Below, piece by piece: positions 6,163-51,519 of a stretch of 52,105 nt of DNA (its first letter is position 1; every line of letters starts with the position of its first letter). Source of the stretch: a virus; the IMG/VR virus record IMGVR_UViG_3300047328_000103, positions 1 to 52,105 of that record. One strand, written 5' to 3'. Under the pieces are notes generated by a model. That model saw nothing but the letters and a program-made list of their open reading frames with translations. It ran no database searches and was not told where the DNA came from. The translations under genes were made by a program, and so were the position numbers.

Positions 6163-6999
6163 CTAATCCCGTATCTCGAGGAGCGCGTCCAGCAGCGCCA
6201 GCAGCTCGCGCTTCACCGTGGCTTTCAGTTCGGCGAGGGCGAGGTCGAGGGCGAGGGCGAGGTCGAGGGCGAGGTCGAGGGCGAGGGCGAGGTCGAGGGC
6301 GAGGGCGAGGTCGAGGTCGAGGTCGAGGGCGAGGGCGAGGTCGAGGGCGAGGTCGAGGGCGAGGGCGAGGTCGAGGTCGAGGTCGAGGGCGAGGTCGAGG
6401 TCGAGGGCGAGGTCGAGGGCGAGGTCGAGGTCGAGGGCGAGGTCGAGGGCGAGGTCGAGGTCGAGGGCGAGGTCGAGGGCGAGGTCGAGGTCGAGGGCGC
6501 GGGCTTCCTGCACCGTGGCTCGCGCCGCTTGCGCGGCGCTCGCCACTGTCTCGTGACTGTCCTCACGGGTCAGCGCCCGCATCGTAGCGGCGTGTGCGGC
6601 CAGCCGTTCCTTGAACGCGGCGAGTTCCGGAACGGCGGCCAGCACGTCGATCGCGATCGGCAGGAGGATCGCGACCATGCGATAGAGCAGCTCGCGGCAG
6701 CGCTTCATCTCCACCTCGTCGGACGCCGTCGAGCCGACGATCTTCGGCAGGCGGTCGCGCAGCGCGTCGCGCATCGCCTGGTCGAACGTGTCGTTCATCC
6801 GCATGGTGAGCGTGCGGATCAGCGGCGAGACGCAGGCCGGCTGGTCCGAATGCGGCTCGCCGGCGAGCCAGGCGGCCGCTTCGTTGACGCAGAGGCCCTC
6901 GCCGCGCTCGTCGTGCGAGCCGACGGTCAGGGCGAGCCGGTCGATCAGCTCGGCGGGAAGCTGGGGCAGCGTGAAGTCGATGATGGTGTCGTCGGTCAT
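6163..6999 (-). CDS. Protein with a long Leu-Asp/Leu-Ala dipeptide repeat
   Basis: A 278-residue protein. The first 155 residues look like an ordinary phage protein ([20 protein letters not shown]; a helix with [14 protein letters not shown]; a hydrophobic helix [20 protein letters not shown]). Then comes an uninterrupted run of about 88 residues of alternating Leu with Asp or Ala, encoded by the hexamer repeat at 6235-6498, and a short helical end ([20 protein letters not shown]). The start has a GGAGAGAG ribosome-binding site. The reading frame stays open through the repeat on this strand, and the flanking parts have normal composition, so this frame is the likely real one. Function unknown. 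Hexamer gain or loss would change length without a frameshift. Confidence 0.7.
6235..6498. repeat. Hexanucleotide tandem repeat, 44 units
   Basis: 44 consecutive hexamers, each either GAGGTC or GAGGGC on the plus strand (GACCTC/GCCCTC, Asp-Leu/Ala-Leu on the coding strand). A higher-order period is visible: three perfect 30-bp copies at 6391-6480 followed by a partial copy, and a 60-bp similarity between 6301-6360 and 6361-6420. Confidence 0.95.
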
Positions 7000-10849: not shown

Positions 10850-11509
10850 TCAGAGCAGCGAGCGGTGGTGCTCGACGGCGACGCCGACGATGCGGCCGCC
10901 CTTTGAACTGGAGAGCGGCATCACCGGCCAGTCGGGATTGACCGGCACGAGTTCGATCATCGGCCGGCCGCGACCGTCGCGGCCCTTCTCGCGATAACGC
11001 TTGAAAGTGGCGGCGTTGTCCTCCTCCATCCTCGCCACGACGTAACGACCGGGCTGCGGCGCCACGTCGGGATCGACGATGATCACGTCGCCGTCGTGGA
11101 ACTCGGGCTCCATCGACGGACCGTCGATCACGAGCGCGAAGGCGCGCGGTCCGACATGGCGGTTGACCGGAATCCAGCGCTCGGCGTCGCCTTTCTCGTA
11201 AGGATCCGCAACGTCGGTCCAGTGGCCGGCGGCAACCGAATCGATCAGCGGCACCGTGCGCACCTGGGGCCGCTCGTCGCGCTCCGCCGTGGTCGCGCTG
11301 CCGCCCCCGAGGAGCTGGGCGGCGGTGCTGCCGTAGATGCGGCCGAGCTGGGTCAGACGCGTGCGCGAGACATCGCTCTCGCCGCGCTCCAGTCGGCTGA
11401 GCTGACCGGGTGACAGCAGGACGCCGATCTTCGCCAGCTTGTCGGACGCCTGCTCCAGCGTCAGCCGCGCCTCTTTGCGGGCGTCTCGAAGACGAATGAG
11501 GGGTTTCAT
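10850..11509 (-). CDS. cI: CI/LexA-type phage repressor (S24 autoprotease)
   Basis: A 219-residue repressor. The N-terminal HTH (about 14-55) includes LTLEQASDKLAKIGVLLSPG and QLSRLERGESDV. The C-terminal S24 peptidase domain has nucleophile Ser132 (IDGPSMEPEF), general base Lys170 (AATFKRYREKG) and a likely self-cleavage Ala94-Gly95 (SVAAGHW). Binding of the operators would keep the phage dormant; RecA-stimulated cleavage would release it. It is divergent from the Cro-like gene across the operator region 11517-11594. The start ATG 11507-11509 is chosen because a longer frame would run through the operators. Strong family call. Confidence 0.93.
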   Translation of the reverse strand: MKPLIRLRDARKEARLTLEQASDKLAKIGVLLSPGQLSRLERGESDVSRTRLTQLGRIYGSTAAQLLGGGSATTAERDERPQVRTVPLIDSVAAGHWTDVADPYEKGDAERWIPVNRHVGPRAFALVIDGPSMEPEFHDGDVIIVDPDVAPQPGRYVVARMEEDNAATFKRYREKGRDGRGRPMIELVPVNPDWPVMPLSSSKGGRIVGVAVEHHRSLL

Positions 11510-11516
11510 CCGGCTA

Positions 11517-11594
11517 TATTTGCATTCGATGCAAATAAGACCACGGCGCGAAATACAAATCCGCTTGCATTGGAATTTGTATCTGATGCAAACT
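11517..11594. promoter_or_regulatory. Right operator region (OR-like)
   Basis: Site 1 (11517-11537) is TATTTGCAT-TCG-ATGCAAATA, a perfect palindrome with 9-bp arms. Site 3 (11574-11594) is AATTTGTAT-CTG-ATGCAAACT. Between them are half-sites ATACAAAT (11553-11560) and TTGCATT (11565-11571), perhaps a degenerate middle site. The region separates the repressor gene from the Cro-like gene and is AT-rich, so it should hold both promoters. The motif is the same as at 10087-10142. Confidence 0.8.
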
Positions 11595-11605
11595 GTCGCT
11601 CGACC

Positions 11606-11842
11606 ATGCCAAGCCTCACCGATTATCTCGCGACGCGAAAAGAAGCCCAGACGGACTTCTGCACGCGCGCCGGCCTCTCCGACGCCACCCTGTCGCGGGT
11701 GCTGCGCGGAAAGATTCCCCCCAGTCCCGACGTTGTGGAAAAGGTCCATCAGGCGACCGACGGCGAGGTGACCGCCAACGACCTGTTCGACGCCTGGCGC
11801 ACCGCGCGGTCTTCCACCCCAGCGGCACCGGAGGCGGCATGA
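11606..11842 (+). CDS. cro: Cro-like HTH regulator
   Basis: A 78-residue protein with an XRE/YdaS-type helix-turn-helix: LTDYLATRKEAQTDFCTRAG then LSDATLSRVLRGKIPPSPD, followed by VVEKVHQATDGEVTANDLF, the usual order in Cro/YdaS proteins. It is the first gene of the rightward early operon, divergent from the repressor gene and directly downstream of the operators. It is expected to bind the same operators and favour lytic growth. The start ATG 11606 avoids reading the operator. The C-terminal tail is Ala/Pro-rich. Confident as an HTH protein; Cro role inferred from position. Confidence 0.82.
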   Translation: MPSLTDYLATRKEAQTDFCTRAGLSDATLSRVLRGKIPPSPDVVEKVHQATDGEVTANDLFDAWRTARSSTPAAPEAA

Positions 11843-14289: not shown

Positions 14290-14765
14290 GCGTCCAGGAG
14301 GACATCGCGCCGCGGCGCTACGAGCCGATTATCGTCACGACGATGCGGCGCTACTTCGCGCGCGGCGCCTCGGCCGGGCTGCTGAACCGGCTGGCCGGCG
14401 GCTTCGCCAACTTCCGCTATCTCAACGCGGCGTGGAATCTCGACGGGCGCGGCGAGGCGCTGCCGCGCGACTTCTTCGACCGGCCCGCGACGAACGACGG
14501 CTTCGACTTCCTGGGCGTGCGCCTGTCGACCGACGAGCGCCGCGTCGCCCTGATCCAGCTGGTCGCGGCCTATGCCAGGGCGCGGCAGGACCTGCCGACC
14601 GACACGCAGCTCGGCCGCTATTTCGGATGCTCCTCCTTCACGATCGAGGACGATCTCGACGAGCTGGTCTATCGCTTCCGCATCGCGCGCACGGCCGGCC
14701 GCCGCTTCGCGGTCGTGCCGCCGCGGCCCGACCGGTGGGCGATCGGGCCGGGGGGCGCGCGATGA
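14286..14765 (+). CDS. Hypothetical early protein
   Basis: A 159-residue protein, starting GTG (GTGA overlap). The middle is rich in aromatic and basic residues (IIVTTMRRYFARGASAGLLN; FANFRYLNAAWNLDGRG). The C-terminal half looks like a winged helix (LPTDTQLGRYFGCSSFTIED; DLDELVYRFRIARTAGRRF). It precedes the primase and may assist replication initiation or regulation. No family recognised with confidence. Confidence 0.6.
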   Translation: MSVQEDIAPRRYEPIIVTTMRRYFARGASAGLLNRLAGGFANFRYLNAAWNLDGRGEALPRDFFDRPATNDGFDFLGVRLSTDERRVALIQLVAAYARARQDLPTDTQLGRYFGCSSFTIEDDLDELVYRFRIARTAGRRFAVVPPRPDRWAIGPGGAR

Positions 14766-15979
14766 AGACCGACTCGCTTTCCGTCTCCTACGATCGCGCC
14801 CACTGGGAGGCGCGCAAGGACAGGATCCGCGAACGCGTGTCGCTGCACGACGTGGTGAGCCGCAAGGTGGCGCTGAAGCGCGCCGGCGCGGCGCCCGAGT
14901 TCGCGGGCCTCTGCCCATTCCACACCGAGAAGACGCCGTCCTTCACGGTGAACACGAAGAAGGATTTCTACCACTGCTTCGGCTGCGGCGCGCACGGCGA
15001 CCTGTTCCGGTTCGTGATGGAGACGCAGGGGCTCGACTTCCGGGGTGCGATCGAGCTGCTCGAGAGCGAGAACGGGCTGAAGCACTTCGAGCGCACGCCG
15101 TTGCCGGCCAAGGCGAAAGCGCCGCCGGTGCTGCAGGCGGAGGATCGCGACAAGCTCGAGGCGGTGCAGCGGATCTGGACGCAGACCGCCGCGCTCGTCG
15201 CCGGCGATCCGGTCGACCGCTACCTGCGCGGCCGCGGCCTGGTGCCGCCTTCGCTGTACGGCGTCGGCGAGGCGGCGGTGAACGCGGGCTGGCCGCCCGA
15301 CCTGCGCTTCCATGGCGGCCTGTGGCATCCCGATGCGCGCGCCGCGCTGCCCGCCATGGTGGCGGCCTATCGCAACGCCGACGGGTTCCTGGTCGCGGTG
15401 CACCGGACCTGGCTGAAGGTGTCGGGGACAACGGTCGGCAAGGCCGGCACGCCGCGCGACAAGATGGCGCTCGGCGCGCGCAAGGGCGCGGTCGTGCGGC
15501 TGGCGCCGGTCGGCGCGCGGATGACCGGCGGCGAGGGCATCGAGACCAGCCTCAGCGCCATGCAGCTGTGGCGCCGGCCGGGCCTGGCCTTCGGCTCGGC
15601 CGACGCGATGGCGGCGGTCGTGCTGCCCTTCGCGATCGACGACTTCCTCTACGCCGCCGACTGGAACGCCAAGAACCGCACCGGCGAGAAGGCGGCGTTC
15701 AAGGGCAAGGCGCTGAACACGCTTGCGGGCCGCACGATCGCCGTGAAGGTGCCGAACCTGCGCGCGCGCGAAAAAGCCGACTTCAACGATTTACGCGAAA
15801 AGCTCGCCGCGCGCGCGGCGGCGTGGAGCGCTGCAGGGAGCGCCAGCGACCGAAGCGCGGGCGCCGCACCGTCCCGACCGGACATCGCTGCCGACCCCGA
15901 ATCGGGAGACCCGAACGCCGTTCGGGACTCCCTTAGCCGTTCGGGCCCTCCCGTCCTCTCGCCCGGAGCCACGCCATGA
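14762..15979 (+). CDS. CHC2 zinc-finger DNA primase with TOPRIM domain
   Basis: A 405-residue DnaG-type primase. The zinc finger is C51-P-F-H54 and C72-F-G-C75, with the canonical KTPSFTVNTKKDFYHCFGCG spacing. The TOPRIM-like catalytic part includes MTGGEGIETSLSAMQL and DDFLYAADWNAKN, the layout seen in phage and plasmid primases. It would make RNA primers for phage replication with the helicase at 18942. The last 60 residues are low-complexity and contain a dispersed palindrome copy (DPNAVRDS), so the tail is probably dispensable. ATG 14762 overlaps the previous gene by ATGA. Confidence 0.9.
   Translation: MKTDSLSVSYDRAHWEARKDRIRERVSLHDVVSRKVALKRAGAAPEFAGLCPFHTEKTPSFTVNTKKDFYHCFGCGAHGDLFRFVMETQGLDFRGAIELLESENGLKHFERTPLPAKAKAPPVLQAEDRDKLEAVQRIWTQTAALVAGDPVDRYLRGRGLVPPSLYGVGEAAVNAGWPPDLRFHGGLWHPDARAALPAMVAAYRNADGFLVAVHRTWLKVSGTTVGKAGTPRDKMALGARKGAVVRLAPVGARMTGGEGIETSLSAMQLWRRPGLAFGSADAMAAVVLPFAIDDFLYAADWNAKNRTGEKAAFKGKALNTLAGRTIAVKVPNLRAREKADFNDLREKLAARAAAWSAAGSASDRSAGAAPSRPDIAADPESGDPNAVRDSLSRSGPPVLSPGATP
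15910..15926. repeat. Dispersed palindrome copy
   Basis: CCCGAAC-GCC-GTTCGGG, 7-bp arms, in the disordered C-terminal tail of the primase (Pro-Asn-Ala-Val-Arg). A lone half-site (CCGTTCGGG) follows at 15937. Confidence 0.9.
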
Positions 15980-16659: not shown

Positions 16660-16847
16660 ACGCGCCGATCCGAAAGGAAAGCTGCCACGGGTGCGTGTTC
16701 GCCGCTATGGCCGAGTCGAACATCGAATGCCGCCGCTATGCGCCGCGCGCGACCGTTGGCCCGGTCGACCCCGACGATAAAACGACCTGGGCGTGTTGGC
16801 CGGTCGTGCTCGAGGACGACTGGTGCGGCGAATGGGTGCAGCGATGA
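16656..16847 (+). CDS. 63-residue cysteine-rich protein
   Basis: ATG 16656 to TGA 16845-16847. Cysteines occur as CHGC near residue 10, one in ECRRY near 25, one in WACWP near 47 and one in DDWCGEW near 57, a pattern compatible with a small zinc ribbon. Short cysteine-rich proteins of this type are frequent in phage early regions. Both ends overlap neighbours by four bases. No function recognised. Confidence 0.65.
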   Translation: MNAPIRKESCHGCVFAAMAESNIECRRYAPRATVGPVDPDDKTTWACWPVVLEDDWCGEWVQR

Positions 16848-17077
16848 GTGCCGCCGTCAGCGCGCTCTACCGCGCACCGTCTTCTGCGAGAAAGCGAGCC
16901 CGGGCCGGCCGCGGCTTCTTCGACGCCGGCTGGCAGAAGGTCGAGATCGTCGGCGATCACGCGACGGGCGGCCTCGTGCTGCGCGAGACCGATCGCTTCT
17001 GGCCCGGCGTCTTTCTCGCCGAGCGCGACCAGGTGCGCCTCGCCGGCCCCGAATTCGAGCCGCGGAGGTCCGCGTGA
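16844..17077 (+). CDS. Hypothetical early protein
   Basis: A 77-residue protein with a basic N-terminus (YRAPSSARKRARAGRGFF) and a beta-rich C-terminal half (WQKVEIVGDHATGGLVLRET; FLAERDQVRLAG). It could be a small nucleic-acid-binding protein. Coupled on both sides (ATGA, then GTGA). No family recognised. Confidence 0.6.
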   Translation: MSAAVSALYRAPSSARKRARAGRGFFDAGWQKVEIVGDHATGGLVLRETDRFWPGVFLAERDQVRLAGPEFEPRRSA

Positions 17078-18297
17078 GAGCCGTCGCGACGCAGGCCGGC
17101 GTGCGCCGGCGGTCGACCCTCTCCGAGAAGATGGCGATCTCGGCCGAAATCCGTGCCGAGGAAGAACGTCAGTACAAGGCGCGCTACGGCAAGCTGCTGC
17201 CCTTCGTCCAGGTGCTGATGCGCAAGGGCTACGTCGTCGACAAGCGGGGCGAAAGCATCCGCGTCGGCAACATGGTGAAGACGCCGGACCAGGTGAAGGC
17301 CATGGCCGAGCGCGAGCTCAGGCTCGATCCCAAGCTGGGCCACGTCGCGGCGCCGGTCCGCAGCGTGCGCACGGCGGCGAACGGACTGAAGGTCGGCGCG
17401 ACGGTGACGATCGAGAAGAAGAAGCCGGCCGTCGCGCCGGTTGCCCGCGACGTTGCCGCGCGGCGCGAAAAGAAGCTGTCCGGCGCTGCGGCCGCGACGA
17501 CGGCGAGGTCCAAGGAATATTCGACGACTCTCGGCACGCGACCGCTGGTCGTGTGGCTCGATCTCGGCCTTCTGATCGTCGACCGCAAGTACCAGCGTGA
17601 CATCAACCAGCACGGCAACGCGCACATCAACAACATCCGCCGATCGTTCAACTGGAACTGCTACCAGCCGATCATCGTCGCGGAGCGGCCGGACGGGAAG
17701 TACGGCATCATTGACGGGCAGCACCGGTTCATGGCTGCCCTGACGCATCCGCTGATCAAGGAACTGCCCTGCTATGTGATCGATGCGCCGGACGTGGCGC
17801 AACAGGCCGAGGTCTTCGTCGCCGTCAACTCGGTGCGAAAATCGCTGACCAGCCAGCAGAAATTCTTCGCCGCCCTGGCGGCCGGCAAGCCGGGTGCGGT
17901 GGCGTTCTCGCGGATCTGCGCGGACGCCGGCATCACCATCCTGCGCGCCGCCCCCGGCAGAGTCCTTCCGCCGCGCTCCGTTCTGTCGCCGATCGTCTGC
18001 CAGAAATTGGTCGAGCGATGGGGGGGGCAACCGGTTCGCCGCGCGATCGAGCTGCTGGTCGCCGTCCATCCCGAGACGCCTGGTGCCTTTCGTGGCTCGA
18101 CGATCGCGGCCCTGACCCGCATCGCCTGGAGCGACAGCGGCCCGATTTTCGCGAAGCTTGCGAAGATCATCGCCGGCGACGGCCTCGATCGCATCTACAC
18201 CGATGCGTTCAAACTCGCGCGAAATGGCGGCGTCGGCAGCATGATCGCGGCCACCGAGAAGATCCTGCGCGACCGGGCAAAGGGCGAAGCGCCGTGA
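17074..18297 (+). CDS. ParB-like (DUF6551-type) protein
   Basis: A 407-residue protein starting GTG (GTGA overlap). After a basic 165-residue N-terminal part comes a ParB/Srx-like fold: IVDRKYQRDINQHGNAHINN, RRSFNWNCYQPIIVAERPDG, YGIIDGQHRFMAALTHP. The IIDGQHR motif is the ParB/DUF6551 nucleotide-binding signature. Related phage proteins are of unknown role and may bind DNA or act as nucleases. An eight-G run at 18019 lies in frame (WGGQ) and does not disrupt the gene. It closes the rightward early operon, two bases from the convergent nuclease gene's stop. Confidence 0.75.
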   Translation: MRAVATQAGVRRRSTLSEKMAISAEIRAEEERQYKARYGKLLPFVQVLMRKGYVVDKRGESIRVGNMVKTPDQVKAMAERELRLDPKLGHVAAPVRSVRTAANGLKVGATVTIEKKKPAVAPVARDVAARREKKLSGAAAATTARSKEYSTTLGTRPLVVWLDLGLLIVDRKYQRDINQHGNAHINNIRRSFNWNCYQPIIVAERPDGKYGIIDGQHRFMAALTHPLIKELPCYVIDAPDVAQQAEVFVAVNSVRKSLTSQQKFFAALAAGKPGAVAFSRICADAGITILRAAPGRVLPPRSVLSPIVCQKLVERWGGQPVRRAIELLVAVHPETPGAFRGSTIAALTRIAWSDSGPIFAKLAKIIAGDGLDRIYTDAFKLARNGGVGSMIAATEKILRDRAKGEAP

Positions 18298-18941: not shown

Positions 18942-20837
18942 GTGAGCAACCAAGAACAAGACATCGACGAGGACGATTTCGCGCGCGATGCGATCGATCC
19001 GCAGCGCAGCGACGGAAAGTCCGGACCGCCCGACGGCTGGGAACGGCCGTCGTGGCGCGACTATGCGCGCGGCGAATGGTGGTATCGCTGGCGCGAGGAC
19101 GCGCCGCACCGGCCCGACCCGCCGCCGGTTCTGATGTTGGGCCACGGCGCCGGCCTCTACTGGTTCGTCACCAAGGCGCGCGAGCTGCGCTCCTTCAGCG
19201 CCGGCCAGCTGCATGGCCGCGGCGGCCTCGCCGACCTTTTCGCCGGCGACGTGCGCTGGGCGGTGCGGCACTTCCCGTCGTTCGATCGCGAGGGCAATCC
19301 GACGAAGCGGCCGAACACGCCGACGCTGATGGAGGCGCTGATCTCGCGGTGCGTCGCCAAGGGCTACTACGACGGCACGCAGCCCTTCCGCTCGATCGGC
19401 ACCTGGCGCGGGCCGGACGACGCGCCGGTCGTGCATGCCGGCGGCCGCATCTTCTTCGACGGCCACGTCTACCAGCCCGGCGAGCTGATCGGCGAGGCTC
19501 GCTACGTGCTGGGGCCCGACCGCACCGCGCCGGCGCATGTGCTGAAGGAACGTGGCCGCTTCGAGTGGCTGCCGGCCGACCAGGCGGCCTGCCACACCGT
19601 GATGGCCCATCTCGACGAATGGCACTGGGCCGAGCCCGAGGCGCGCGAGCTGTTCGCCGGCGGCCTGTGGTGCGACATGCTGGGCGATGCGCTGCGCTGG
19701 AAGACGCACAAGTTCGTGCGCGCCTCGAAGGGCTCCGGCAAGTCGACCTTGCTGCGATACATCTCGGCGCTGCTGGGCGGCGCGGCGCATCCGATTCAGC
19801 GCACCTATTCGAAGGCGCGTCTCGAGGAGCAGGGCGCACACACCGCGCTCGCCATCCTGCTCGAGGAAGCCGAGGGCGATCCCGGCCACGACGCCGATCG
19901 CATGAAGGCGATCTTCCAGCTGCTGCTGCTGCTCAGCGACGAGGGCGCTGTCGGCGGCCGCTTCAAGCGCGACATCGACCTGCACGGCCCGGTCACCATG
20001 GTGGCGACACTGACCGACGACTGGCGCGGCACGATCAAGACCCGCATCGTGCTGCTCGAACTGCGCGCGCTCAAGGATCACGTCGGCCACGATCTGATGC
20101 CGCTCGAGGCGATCGAGGCGATGGTCTCCCGCGCCCACGAGATCTCGGCCGGTCTGCGCGCGCGTGTGCTGTCGCTCAAGGCCGACGGCACGTTCGACAA
20201 GAACCTGGTGCTGGCGCGCGATCGCGTGATCGACCTCGGCGGCGATTCGAGGGATGGCGATACGCTCGGCCACATGATCGCCGGCTGGGCGACCATGGTG
20301 CTGGGCCGCGTCCTCGACGAGGACGAGATCGGCGCGCTCGCCCGCTTCGAGCCGTGGATCACGACGTTGCAGGACAGCGAGGATGGCGGCGACGATGCGA
20401 CCGAGCTGCTGAACGTGCTGCTGGGCCTGCCGGCGCAGAACTGGCGCGGTGGCGACCAGCTCACGATCGGCCAGCTCGTGGCGCGCGCGCGCCTCACGGA
20501 AAACGCCGACATGAGGCGAGCGCTGCTGCCCTACGGGCTGCGGCTGGAGAAGATGCCGAACGAGACATGGGAGCAGGCGTGGCTCGCCGTCGCCAACAAG
20601 CATCCCGGCCTCGACCGGCTGTTCGCCGACTATCCGCAGTATCGCGGCGGCAAACGCGCGCAAATCCTGTCTGAACTGAAAGTCGGCGGCGAACTCGCGG
20701 CCAAGCCGTCGGTCCGGCCGCTGCGCTTCGCCGGGCCGCAAAGCCGCGCGCTGCTGATCGATCCGCGCCTGCTGCCCAGCCGCAAGGACGACGACGACGC
20801 GGCCGGTCCGGCGCCCGAGGTGGAGATTCCGCGATGA
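18942..20837 (+). CDS. P-loop replicative helicase-type protein
   Basis: A 631-residue protein starting GTG with GGGGAG upstream. The N-terminal 240 residues hold a domain of unknown fold. The ATPase core begins with Walker A ASKGSGKSTLL (261-271), followed by a Walker B-like AILLEEAEGD near 305 and a sensor-like MVATLTDDWRGT near 350. The arrangement and size fit phage primase-associated or D5-like superfamily-3 helicases, which unwind DNA at the origin. The adjacent iteron cluster and the separate CHC2 primase support this. The exact helicase family is not certain. Confidence 0.75.
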   Translation: MSNQEQDIDEDDFARDAIDPQRSDGKSGPPDGWERPSWRDYARGEWWYRWREDAPHRPDPPPVLMLGHGAGLYWFVTKARELRSFSAGQLHGRGGLADLFAGDVRWAVRHFPSFDREGNPTKRPNTPTLMEALISRCVAKGYYDGTQPFRSIGTWRGPDDAPVVHAGGRIFFDGHVYQPGELIGEARYVLGPDRTAPAHVLKERGRFEWLPADQAACHTVMAHLDEWHWAEPEARELFAGGLWCDMLGDALRWKTHKFVRASKGSGKSTLLRYISALLGGAAHPIQRTYSKARLEEQGAHTALAILLEEAEGDPGHDADRMKAIFQLLLLLSDEGAVGGRFKRDIDLHGPVTMVATLTDDWRGTIKTRIVLLELRALKDHVGHDLMPLEAIEAMVSRAHEISAGLRARVLSLKADGTFDKNLVLARDRVIDLGGDSRDGDTLGHMIAGWATMVLGRVLDEDEIGALARFEPWITTLQDSEDGGDDATELLNVLLGLPAQNWRGGDQLTIGQLVARARLTENADMRRALLPYGLRLEKMPNETWEQAWLAVANKHPGLDRLFADYPQYRGGKRAQILSELKVGGELAAKPSVRPLRFAGPQSRALLIDPRLLPSRKDDDDAAGPAPEVEIPR

Positions 20838-21085
20838 TGTACCGGTCGAGTCCCGGCGGAGTCCCGCCTCCTGTACCGCCCCCGGACCCCCGGTTTGTCG
20901 GGGCGGAACGGATTTTCGGTACAGCGGTACGGTTCTCATGAAGGCCTCTCCATGCGCGCGTGCGCGCGTAGAGGGAAAGACTGTCGAAGGGCGTACCGCT
21001 GTACCGTTTCTCTATTTAAACGAGGAAAAATAATATGAATAAGCCGGTACAGGAGGCGGTACAGAGCCGGGACGAGGCGGTACAG
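20838..21085. repeat. CGGTACAG iteron-like cluster, candidate phage origin
   Basis: Exact copies of CGGTACAG (either strand) at 20871-20878, 20917-20924, 20999-21006, 21045-21052, 21057-21064 and 21078-21085. Near copies lie at 20837-20844, 20925-20932 and 20992-20999. Two of them form a perfect 15-bp inverted repeat (20917-20931 and 20992-21006). The only clearly AT-rich stretch nearby (21008-21034) lies between the inverted copies and the direct copies. The cluster follows the helicase gene, where many phages have their origin. The alternative is an operator for the gene at 21035. Confidence 0.7.
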
Positions 21086-21685
21086 GCGTCGAGGCCGGAC
21101 TGGCAGCCGCGCACCGACGGGTTGAAGGCGATCCTCGTCAACGAACGCTCGACCGTGTTCGATCGGCCGGCCGTCGTGCCGCTGCAGGCGATCGAGCCGG
21201 CCTACGACGGCGCGTTCGGGCCGATGCCGACGGAGTGGACGCACGACCTGGTCCATTGCCGGCTCGTGCATGTCGATGCGCTGTGCCGCCGCCTGCCGCG
21301 CGTGAAGGTGCCGCCGCAATACCGCTCGTTCCTGGGTGCGCTACAGCCGGAAGACGCGGCCGTCGAGGGGCGCGTGCGGGCGCTGACGGTGGAGCAGGAA
21401 CGGATGGTCGACTGGACACTGGCGCGGATCTACGCCTTCGGGCCGGTCGATCGCGCCGTGCTGATGGGCATGATGGCGGGGCGGTCGCTGCGCACGATCT
21501 CGAAGGTCACGCTGGCGATCGAGCTGCGCGGCGAGGCCGAAGGCGATCGCGGGCTTAAAAAGCCGAGCGTGGCCAAGCGTTACCGACGTAACGCGACGAT
21601 CCTCGCCCAGTCGTGGAACATGCTGCGGGTACCGATCGACGACGGGACGTGCCGCTGCTGGAACACCTTCGCAAAAAAAGTTTAG
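21035..21685 (+). CDS. Putative late regulator (DUF6362-like)
   Basis: A 216-residue protein (MNKPVQEAVQSRDEAVQASR). Its first 17 codons contain three CGGTACAG repeats, giving the VQ/AVQ pattern. A central HTH-like part (MVDWTLARIYAFGPVDRAVL; GMMAGRSLRTISKVTLAIEL) and basic tail (KRYRRNATILAQSWN) resemble DUF6362-type phage proteins often located just before packaging genes. That position suggests a late-gene activator or antiterminator. Start ATG 21035 is preceded by GAGGAAAA. Function inferred from position. Confidence 0.6.
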   Translation: MNKPVQEAVQSRDEAVQASRPDWQPRTDGLKAILVNERSTVFDRPAVVPLQAIEPAYDGAFGPMPTEWTHDLVHCRLVHVDALCRRLPRVKVPPQYRSFLGALQPEDAAVEGRVRALTVEQERMVDWTLARIYAFGPVDRAVLMGMMAGRSLRTISKVTLAIELRGEAEGDRGLKKPSVAKRYRRNATILAQSWNMLRVPIDDGTCRCWNTFAKKV

Positions 21686-22660: not shown

Positions 22661-23872
22661 TTGCCAAACCATCATGCCCGCTTCGAGCTCCGACCCACCG
22701 GAGCCCTCGAGAAGCCGCACCGCACCGCCCGGCGTCATCCGGCGCGCCAGATCGAGCGCCTGATGCGGTCGATCGACCGTTTCGGCTTCAACGCGCCGAT
22801 CGTCGTCACCGCCGCCGGCGAGATTGTCGCCGGCGAGGCCCGATGGTCGGCCGCGCAGCAGCTCGGCCTCGCGACGGTGCCGGTCGTCATCGCCGATCAC
22901 CTGACGCCGCGACAGGTCGAGGCCTATCGCATCGCCGACAACCGCCTGGCCGAGGACGCCGACTGGGACGAGGCGATCCTGGCCTCGATCTACCGCGACC
23001 TCGACCTCGAGCTGGCACCGGAAGACATCGAGGCGATCGGCTTGAGCGGCGTGGAGATCGACAAGCTGCTCGCCTTCGGTCTGCCCGATCCCGCGACCAA
23101 CGAAGACACGACGCAAGCCCCGCAGCCGCCGCCGATCACCCGGCGCGGCGATCTCTGGGAAATGGGCCCGCATCGCCTGCTGTGCGGCGACTCGACCGAT
23201 CGCGTCGATGTCGGCCGCCTGCTCGCCGGCGCCAGGCCGCACCTGATGGTCACCGATCCGCCCTACGGCGTCGAATACGACCCGTCGTTCCGCAACGAGA
23301 TCATCAACCGAGGCAAGGAATCGACCCGCGTCGGCGAGGTCCTGAACGACGACCGCGCCGACTGGCGTGAGGCCTGGGAACTCTTCCCCGGCGATGCCGC
23401 CTATGTCTGGCACGCCGCGACGCGCGCCTACGAGGTAGAGGGCAGCCTGCGGGCTTGCGCCTTCGAGACGCGCGCCGTCATCGCCTGGGTCAAACCGAAC
23501 TTCGCGATCGGCCGCGGCCACTATCACTGGCAGCACGAGCCGGCGCTGTACGTCGTGCGCAAGGGCGCGACCGGCCACTGGCAGGGCGCGCGCGACCAGT
23601 CGACCGTCTGGACGATCGACTCGAGCGGCCTCGAGAACCTGGCGACGGTGCACGGCACGCAAAAGCCGGTCGAATGCATGCGCCGGCCGATGATGAACAA
23701 CAGCCGCCGCGGCGACGCGATCTACGAGCCGTTCGGCGGCTCGGGCTCGACGATCATCGCGGCCGAAACGGTCGGCCGTCGCGCCTTCGCCGTCGAACTG
23801 AGCGAGCTCTACTGCGACGTCATCGTGCGCCGCTGGCAAACCTTCACCGGCCGCACCGCGCGCCGCATCTGA
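22661..23872 (+). CDS. ParB-domain DNA methyltransferase
   Basis: A 403-residue two-domain protein. Residues about 25-110 are a ParB-like domain (RQIERLMRSIDRFGFNAPIV; GEIVAGEARWSAAQQLGL; VEAYRIADNRLAED). Residues about 160-403 are an N4/N6 DNA methylase with catalytic DPPY (199-202) and FGGSGSTIIAAE near the C-terminus, the SAM-binding motif. Fused ParB-MTases lie upstream of terminase genes in many phages and may protect the phage from restriction. There is no ATG; the only start after an in-frame stop is TTG at 22661. Strong family call; start weak. Confidence 0.88.
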   Translation: MPNHHARFELRPTGALEKPHRTARRHPARQIERLMRSIDRFGFNAPIVVTAAGEIVAGEARWSAAQQLGLATVPVVIADHLTPRQVEAYRIADNRLAEDADWDEAILASIYRDLDLELAPEDIEAIGLSGVEIDKLLAFGLPDPATNEDTTQAPQPPPITRRGDLWEMGPHRLLCGDSTDRVDVGRLLAGARPHLMVTDPPYGVEYDPSFRNEIINRGKESTRVGEVLNDDRADWREAWELFPGDAAYVWHAATRAYEVEGSLRACAFETRAVIAWVKPNFAIGRGHYHWQHEPALYVVRKGATGHWQGARDQSTVWTIDSSGLENLATVHGTQKPVECMRRPMMNNSRRGDAIYEPFGGSGSTIIAAETVGRRAFAVELSELYCDVIVRRWQTFTGRTARRI

Positions 23873-44371: not shown

Positions 44372-45993
44372 CGACCCGAACGGCGTTCGCTTTTCTGCGC
44401 CGCGGCCGCGCCGGCCTGCTGCTCGCGCTGCTCGGCCTCGTCTTCGGTTTCGTGCCGCTGCCCGCGGCCGCGCAACAGCTCGGCACGCCGCAGGCGCTGT
44501 CGTGCCCGATGGTGGTCAACGCCTGCGGCACCCCGGCCTTCACGCGCTCGGCGCTGGGCACGTCGGCGCTGTTCAACGGCACGGCGCTGCCCACCACGAG
44601 CGTGCCGGCCGGCGCCGCGATCGGCGACTATTACCTCCGCACCACGACCGGCCAGCTCTACCAGAACCAGGCCGGCAGCTGGGTCGCGGTCGTCAATCTC
44701 ACCGGCCCGACCGGTGCCACCGGCCCGACCGGGCCGACCGGCGCGACGGGCCCGACCGGCGCCACCGGGCCGACCGGCGCGACGGGTGCAACCGGCGCCG
44801 CCGGCACCAACGGCAACACGGTGTGGAACGGCAGCGGCGCGCCGTCGTCGGGCACCGGCGTCAACGGCGACTTCTACGTCGACACGACCGCGCACGCGAT
44901 CTACGGCCCGAAGACGGCCGGCGCCTGGGGCAGCTCGACCTCGCTGATCGGGCCGACCGGCGCCACCGGGCCGACCGGCGCGACGGGCGCGACAGGGCCG
45001 GCCGGTGCGACGGGCGCGACCGGGCCCACGGGCCCGACCGGCGCCGCCGGCAGCAACGGCACGAACGGCACCAACGGCACCAACGCCTACACGACGACGT
45101 CGGCTAATTTCACGATGCCCGCCGTCTCGTCGACGGTGAGCGTGAGCGTCGCCACGACGGCGTGGATGGTAAGCGGCGAGTATCTGTACGTCGGCACCGC
45201 CGGCTACATGACGGTCTCGTCGATCACGAACGCCACGACGGTCGTGCTGACGAATGCCGGCGCCACGGGCAATGCGAGCGCGAGCTCGACGATCTCGAGC
45301 GGCGCCAGCGTGTCGCCCTCGGGAGCGCCAGGCGCGTCGGCCTCGACCACCGGCGTCACCGTCCAGATCATCACCAGCGGCACGACCTACACGGTGCCGA
45401 GCGGCGTCAAGTGGATCGAGTTCGACTTTTGCGGCGGCGGCGGCGGCAGCGGAAGTTATGGCGCGGGCGGCGATGGTGGGGCGACCAGCGTCAACTCGGT
45501 GACGGCGGCCGGCGGCAAGGGTGGCGCTGCGGCGGGGTTGGGAACGAGCGCGGGCGGCCTCGGCGGTTCCGGGGGGACGGGCACGGCCAGCAGCCCCCGA
45601 GTGCGCGGCCAGAACGGCGGCACCGGCCTGTCGCTCATGGGAGGCGATGGCGCGACGACCTATGGCCGTGGCGGCGAGGGCGGCAACGGGTTCAACAACG
45701 GCGGCGGCGGCAAGGCGACCCTCGCCTCGTCTGGCGCGACCGGCGCTGCGCCCTCGGCGAATAGCTGCGCCGGCGCAGGGGGCGCCGTCTACAACCCGAG
45801 CGGCAGCACCTACAACGGCGGCGGCGGCGGCGGCGGCGGCGAGCCGGTCAAGCTGATCGTCGTCAATCCCGGTTCGACCATACCGATCGCGATCGGCCTG
45901 GGCGGCACGGCCGGCAACGACGGCGGCAGCGGCGCGCTTGGCGTCGCGGGCGCCGCGGGCGTCATCCGAGGCATCGAACACTACAGCTACTAG
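44368..45993 (+). CDS. Collagen-like, glycine-rich fibre protein with signal-peptide-like start
   Basis: A 541-residue protein. An N-terminal hydrophobic segment with basic residues ([20 protein letters not shown] then AAAQQ) reads like a secretory signal peptide. Two collagen-like Gly-x-y tracts follow (GPTGATG-type, about 111-150 and 194-236), then a beta region, then a glycine-rich C-terminal domain (from about 355) of the type seen in receptor-binding adhesins. Trimeric phage fibres often contain collagen repeats, but a signal peptide is not expected in a virion protein, so it may instead be an exported host-surface protein. A palindrome copy occupies codons 3-7. ATGA overlap. Confidence 0.75.
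44377..44389. repeat. Dispersed palindrome copy
   Basis: CGAAC-GGC-GTTCG in codons 3-7 of the collagen-like gene, in the n-region of its signal-like segment (Arg-Thr-Ala-Phe). Confidence 0.85.
44700..45078. repeat. Two collagen-type Gly-Pro-Thr/Gly-Ala-Thr repeat tracts
   Basis: Nine-base-type GGC/GGG-CCG-ACC and GGC-GCG-ACG units at about 44703-44810 and 44947-45078, separated by a unique 45-residue domain ([20 protein letters not shown]). Repeats could recombine and alter fibre length. Confidence 0.85.
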
Positions 45994-51442: not shown

Positions 51443-51519
51443 GTCCCCGTAGCTCAGCCGGATAGAGCAGCGGTTTCCTAAACCGGAGGTCGGAGGTTCG
51501 AATCCTCTCGGGGACGCCA
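51443..51519 (+). tRNA. tRNA-Arg (anticodon CCT)
   Basis: A 77-nt tRNA with all arms: acceptor GTCCCCG/CGGGGAC, D-stem GCTC/GAGC, anticodon loop TTCCTAA with CCT at 51477-51479, T-loop TTCGAAT and genome-encoded CCA (51517-51519). It decodes AGG. It lies just beyond the prophage's right-hand genes with its 5' end facing the phage, so the common att-in-3'-end geometry does not apply to this prophage. Confidence 0.96.

Follow-up and report, generated by a model that had tools for sequence, protein, structure and literature searches.

A twelve-site iteron array 3' of a D5-like helicase gene: a proposed origin of replication in a temperate tailed phage

The primase–helicase module and the repeats behind it

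The 52,105-nt viral record that was analysed here over its whole length (the window) carries a GpA large terminase and a lambda-type portal. A minus-strand repressor with HTH and Peptidase_S24 domains (10850-11749) is consistent with a temperate phage. The replication genes comprise a DnaG-type primase (Pfam matches PF01807, 2.5e-30, and PF13362, 5.5e-07) and a D5-like SF3/AAA+ helicase, encoded by separate ORFs that are not fused, and a dense array of short repeats follows the helicase gene (Table 1). Between primase and helicase lies a ParB-like ORF (16738-18297), and downstream a ParB_N domain is fused to a DNA methyltransferase (22661-23872). Close to the right end, a tRNA-Arg (CCT) gene (51443-51519) is followed by lower-GC sequence, possibly an attachment site and host flank. 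Tandem repeats of a different kind are coding: 12/18-nt units specifying acidic residues at 6174-6576, and 9-nt, collagen-like units at 44653-45106.

Table 1. Genes and sequence elements of the locus (positions in the window)
Feature	Position	Strand	Remarks
DnaG-type primase ORF ('pri')	14432..15979	+	CHC2 zinc finger, DUF7146, Toprim_3
D5-like SF3/AAA+ helicase, 631 aa, proposed initiator ('rep')	18942..20837	+	phrog_21086, 1.4e-65
Helicase C-terminal domain, residues 482-631, proposed iteron reader	20385..20834	+	folded alone, pLDDT 91.1
Outer-left iterons	20839..20878	-	4x GT[A/C]CCG at 20839, 20850, 20861, 20873; spacing 11, 11, 12; kept in five phages
Left arm	20879..20916		32% AT; 44 bp from innermost outer site to first inner site
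Inner-left pair	20917..20930	+	CGGTAC at 20917 and 20925; spacing 8
Core between half-origins (proposed)	20931..20992		contains GCGCGCGTGCGCGCG; dyad axis
Inner-right pair	20993..21006	-	GTACCG at 20993 and 21001; spacing 8; inner-left pair inverted
Right arm	21007..21044		76% AT; proposed melting element; overlaps start region of ORF 21035; 44 bp from last inner to first outer site
Outer-right iterons	21045..21083	+	4x CGG[T/G]AC at 21045, 21057, 21068, 21078; spacing 12, 11, 10
216-aa ORF, start overlaps array	21035..21685	+	unknown family

The initial annotation of this DNA had singled out a cluster of six exact and three near-exact copies of an 8-mer directly downstream of the helicase gene and had read it as a candidate iteron origin. 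The 8-mer, CGGTACAG, indeed occurs six times in the whole record, exclusively within 20871-21085, where dinucleotide shuffles yield 0.41 copies on average and never more than 3; a genome-wide abundance of the 8-mer, which the annotation had named as a possible refutation, is not observed. The near-exact copies are likewise present, at 20839, 20925 and 20993. The census was nevertheless incomplete, missing three CGGGAC sites (20850, 20861 and 21068). Alignment with four orthologous phage loci (L136-L139, obtained by alignment search; five phages with the window) reduces the conserved repeat unit to CGG[T/G]AC. This unit is found at 12 sites in 246 bp, starting 1 base past the helicase stop codon (20835-20837), and at most three times per 260 bp elsewhere in the record; the highest density in 300 simulated sequences was 7, compared with 12 in the real one.

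A hallmark of the array is its mirror symmetry: the 12 sites are ordered 4-2-core-2-4 with equal arms of 44 bp. Four leftward sites are followed after 44 bp by two rightward ones; past a core step of 68 bp come two leftward sites and, after another 44 bp, four rightward ones, the steps within each set being given in Table 1. The inner pairs form the perfect 15-bp inverted repeat that had been pointed out before (20917-20931 and 20992-21006). The AT-rich segment previously noticed between the repeats is the right arm (21007-21044), flanked by the inner-right pair and the outer-right set, with an AT content of 76% vs 31% locally. The outer-right iterons sit inside codons 4-17 of ORF 21035, and the three direct copies assigned to the first codons of that gene are found at 21045, 21057 and 21078. 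GC skew, which had been suggested as a check, lends no support: the cumulative skew near the site is at a maximum, not a minimum.

Constraint on the array in orthologous phages

Close-relative scans with the helicase alone revealed no relatives in viral or genome contigs, so that alignments were needed, and a blastn search of phages with the array returned nothing beyond chance matches. In all five phages (the window, L136, L137, L138 and L139) both arms measure exactly 44 bp, and invariant columns are concentrated in the iterons (62/72, vs 61/173 between sites; Fisher p 1e-13). Of the 12 sites, four are translated as part of ORF 21035, where three of the copies read PVQ/AVQ in a single frame; the repeats might accordingly be nothing more than the codons of a repeated peptide, an outcome that the initial annotation had also allowed for as a refutation. 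This can practically be dismissed: eight of the 12 sites lie outside ORF 21035, the T/G alternation of the iterons changes the amino acid in its product, and third codon positions among the five orthologues are more conserved in the outer-right iterons (identity 0.88) than in the rest of the ORF (0.55). Where the amino acid is the same, the codon is identical in 61 of 65 cases in the iteron part and in 332 of 567 cases in the remainder. The coding copies are thus conserved beyond codon need and the constraint acts on DNA: the signal lies in the nucleotide sequence and not in a peptide. One orthologue (L188) resides in a Rhodospirillales genome bin, which hints at the host group.

The genes around the array were compared over 35 loci. 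Primase homologues are found upstream of the helicase in 35/35; the presence of the helicase itself in 35/35 was preset, since the loci were chosen by it. The ORF 21035 product, for which no Pfam or PHROG match was obtained, belongs to a family represented in only 5/35 loci and is, for this reason, not the conserved iteron reader. Of the two binders considered initially, the helicase or the product of this gene, the former is therefore favoured and the latter is not. In 25/35 loci the gene after the array belongs to a second family, so that another binder is not excluded.

These comparisons bear on three further readings. In the first, the array would be an operator or regulatory region, with the 21035 product or a repressor sitting on the iterons and controlling late genes or ORF 21035 itself. 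The sites do surround the 21035 start, and direct repeats close to a start codon may serve as operators; what makes this very unlikely is the rarity of the 21035 family among array-bearing loci, the size of the element (12 phased sites with mirrored arms spanning 246 bp, more than a typical operator) and a geometry that is common to a replication origin. A parS-like partition site for the ParB-like proteins has in its favour only that two ParB_N-like ORFs flank the region, and it appears highly improbable: homologues of the first were found in only 4/35 loci, the second occurs in the window alone, and there is no ParA among the ORFs scanned. Thirdly, the array could mark the start of packaging (cosB/pac), recognized by a small-terminase-like protein that the following gene encodes and located upstream of the large terminase. 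A family of ~200 aa does stand after the array and before TerL in 25/35 loci, and in L152 and L155 the array adjoins the following gene though other genes part it from the helicase. However, hhalign leaves the post-array genes in at least three unconnected families; in L168 this gene is ~1.7 kb off, with the array still close to the helicase; a DNA polymerase III beta gene intervenes between array and terminase in S-H1; the arms are AT-rich; and the array geometry equals that of P4 ori1 (see below). A packaging function is consequently considered unlikely, and a replication origin remains the best reading of the array: the layout is kept in the orthologous phages, replication itself being inferred.

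Recurrence of the geometry among helicase relatives

A second alignment scan provided 44 related helicase loci with 26-100% identity over the best segment, and the densest 7-mer cluster was sought anywhere in each of 45 helicase loci. In 34 of them the strongest repeat cluster of the locus (at least six copies) starts between -94 and +2192 from the helicase stop, and none of these 34 clusters is located upstream of the helicase; degenerate arrays are visible in alignments or site maps of nine further loci. In total, an array is positioned downstream of the helicase gene in 43/45 relatives, at a distance of 1.2-2.2 kb in five of them, and the main array is upstream in none. No array was found in L166 and L176, and relatives of the helicase in Bordetella, Pseudomonas, Enterobacter and Aeromonas phages have no clear array within 700 bp downstream.

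The iteron words of the relatives differ strongly (CTCTACA, CGTGGCA, TACAACA, ACAAGAC, CGTTCCC, CGTTACC, CGTAACA, GGTTCTA, TGTCTAA, GTGTGAA and CGTTGCA, for example), and the geometry recurs, with a median of 12 sites, ~42-bp arms and an inner spacing of 8 bp. That genes of this helicase family are followed by the same layout even where the iteron sequences are unrelated strengthens the origin reading. A geometry census covered 21 representatives with less than 60% helicase identity. Exactly three long gaps, typically of 41-45, 55-89 and 41-45, were present in 19 of the 21; gaps of 41-45 bp between opposed sites occurred twice in 9/21 and at least once in 14/21, and the orientation mirror symmetry of 0.656 exceeded that of all 2000 shuffles. 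The layouts were derived from per-locus weight matrices at a fixed threshold with outlying sites trimmed by hand, and the site counts of single loci, ranging from 8 to 14, are threshold-dependent, with an error of one or two. The Synechococcus phage MinM1 has twelve sites with gaps of 31, 67 and 42. Locus L066 was found via the iteron pattern alone; its sites are laid out 4-2-2-3, and the contig encodes the helicase family of the window (E 9e-143), ~0.8 kb upstream of the array. In most relatives the right arm is AT-rich and the core is not.

A change of the iteron between near-identical phages can be seen in the pair L147/L148, whose helicases are 94% identical: the word is CGTAAC in one and CGGTAC in the other throughout the array, and the helicase substitutions are concentrated in the C-terminal part (17/148 vs 16/410, p 0.002). 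A coupling of iteron switch and C-terminal change may be at work here; resting on a single pair of sequences, it is no more than a lead.

A scan with the CGGTACAG pattern returned many chance single matches besides arrays. It also returned arrays of another site geometry directly 3' of PrimPol-AAA_25 or Toprim-AAA_25 replication proteins (L071, L056, L063, L072, L036, L120, L045, L054, L116 and L134), which are unrelated to the helicase of the window. Initiators of different types seem to share the word, which by itself is therefore not specific to the window helicase.

The helicase as proposed initiator and its known counterparts

Initiator helicases that bind iterons just 3' of their own genes via a C-terminal domain exist in Cch and the Rep of SaPIbov1. 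A model of the window helicase, built from a 45-row alignment (pLDDT 85.8), is predicted to resemble both: its best VIA-align match is SCCmec Cch (5dgk_B, Z 15.7, 412 residues, model 41-612), SaPIbov1 Rep (8tch_B) aligns with Z 12.2 over model residues 149-623, and both alignments extend into the C-terminal domain. The initial annotation had remarked that no dedicated initiator protein is obvious, which is explained by this resemblance: the helicase itself is akin to initiators. Foldseek matched the model to poxvirus D5/E5 and to NrS-1. Modelled on its own, the C-terminal domain had no significant fold match, nor did a sequence search of the PDB yield any; most of the weak matches are DNA-binding proteins of the winged-helix type (Z up to 4.4), so that a winged helix is suggested by the model, not shown. 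The absence of the P4 alpha origin-binding domain among the C-terminal-domain matches listed is not counter-evidence. The phage that contains L066 has another, weak match to the helicase profile (L191, 1501-1773; E 1.5e-4), which is confined to the C-terminal part and is possibly a stand-alone iteron-binding domain.

Taken together, the array is very probably the origin of a temperate tailed phage within a pri-rep-ori module, with the helicase acting as its own initiator via the C-terminal domain in the form of two hexamers. The sites, their geometry, their conservation in related phages and their positional link to primase and helicase are observed; in the absence of binding, footprint or replication data, origin activity is inferred, as are the steps leading to it. 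These could proceed in the following manner: the C-terminal domain would bind the CGG[T/G]AC iterons, and each half-origin, consisting of six sites and one arm (four outer and two inner sites, 44 bp apart), would receive one hexamer. As two halves are joined back to back, two hexamers may face each other across the core. The AT-rich right arm presumably melts first, and the rings would be loaded without a DnaC/DnaB-type loader; the DnaG-type primase of the module may then prime both directions. The count of 6+6 sites thus suggests an assembly of two helicase hexamers on duplex DNA in which no loader is required.

Several known replicons share parts of this organization. (i) In SaPIs and PICIs, the primase gene is followed by that of the helicase, and immediately 3' of the latter come iterons grouped in sets about an AT-rich region, an organization said to be absent from other known bacterial replicons (PMC6092414). 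The order of primase, helicase and iterons is the same in the window, and its helicase model matches the SaPIbov1 Rep fold. PICIs, however, are satellites, whereas the phage of the window has its own terminase and portal in a full-size 52-kb record, and their AT-rich part is central, in contrast to the arm of the window. (ii) The C-terminal domain of Cch2 binds direct repeats downstream of its own operon (PMC7581432). The origin of SCCmec, to which the top structural match belongs, contains AAGTG iterons in a direct-repeat region of 23 bp and not a twelve-site dyad. (iii) The pRN1 protein ORF904 possesses a C-terminal winged helix, and a required origin element is found directly downstream of its gene (PMC4234260). 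This primase-helicase is alike in having an origin element 3' of its gene; the element is a stem-loop, not iterons, and the primase is of the archaeo-eukaryotic type. (iv) P4 alpha is likewise an SF3 primase-helicase module with short iterons, although here primase and helicase are fused, in contrast to the separate genes of the window, and the iterons are TGTTCACC and not CGG[T/G]AC. The annotated P4 ori1 is a six-site block with a 43-bp arm of 83% AT, and its pattern, <10<11<22>43<10<, matches the left half of L156, <11<11<22>42<9<; this agreement with a half-array is further support for the origin reading. In P4, crr is found a short way 3' of the alpha gene. Unlike the two six-site halves of the window, which form one dyad, ori1 and crr are separated by more than 4 kb.

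The order pri-rep-ori with iterons 3' of rep is thus already known from SaPIs and PICIs (PMC6092414). Its occurrence in tailed phages that encode a terminase and portal of their own is new, as are the twelve-site dyad and the turnover of iterons at constant geometry. No description of the twelve-site layout was found in the literature, most subscription papers being beyond the search. An origin type that one study had called unique to satellites (PMC6092414) is hereby extended to full-size phages. A broader hypothesis, whose chances we regard as even, is that tailed phages with this helicase family follow a fixed grammar of twelve sites, six per hexamer, with two equal ~42-bp arms and 8-bp inner phasing, the word being nearly free and all copies shifting together with a few C-terminal residues, as in the pair L147/L148; P4 ori1 and crr would then be the split halves of such an origin. 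If true, the grammar gives a reason for the two separate cis sites of P4. Phage origins are hard to predict, and such a grammar would let origins be read from sequence across a broad phage group even without a shared iteron; near-identical phages with all iterons switched would be natural experiments on the co-evolution of initiator and target. The same grammar at a greater distance was noted in a human faecal phage (L007, 7241-7515), where an array of CGGTAACG with 11 sites and a 41-bp arm lies 2.4 kb downstream of a D5-like helicase.
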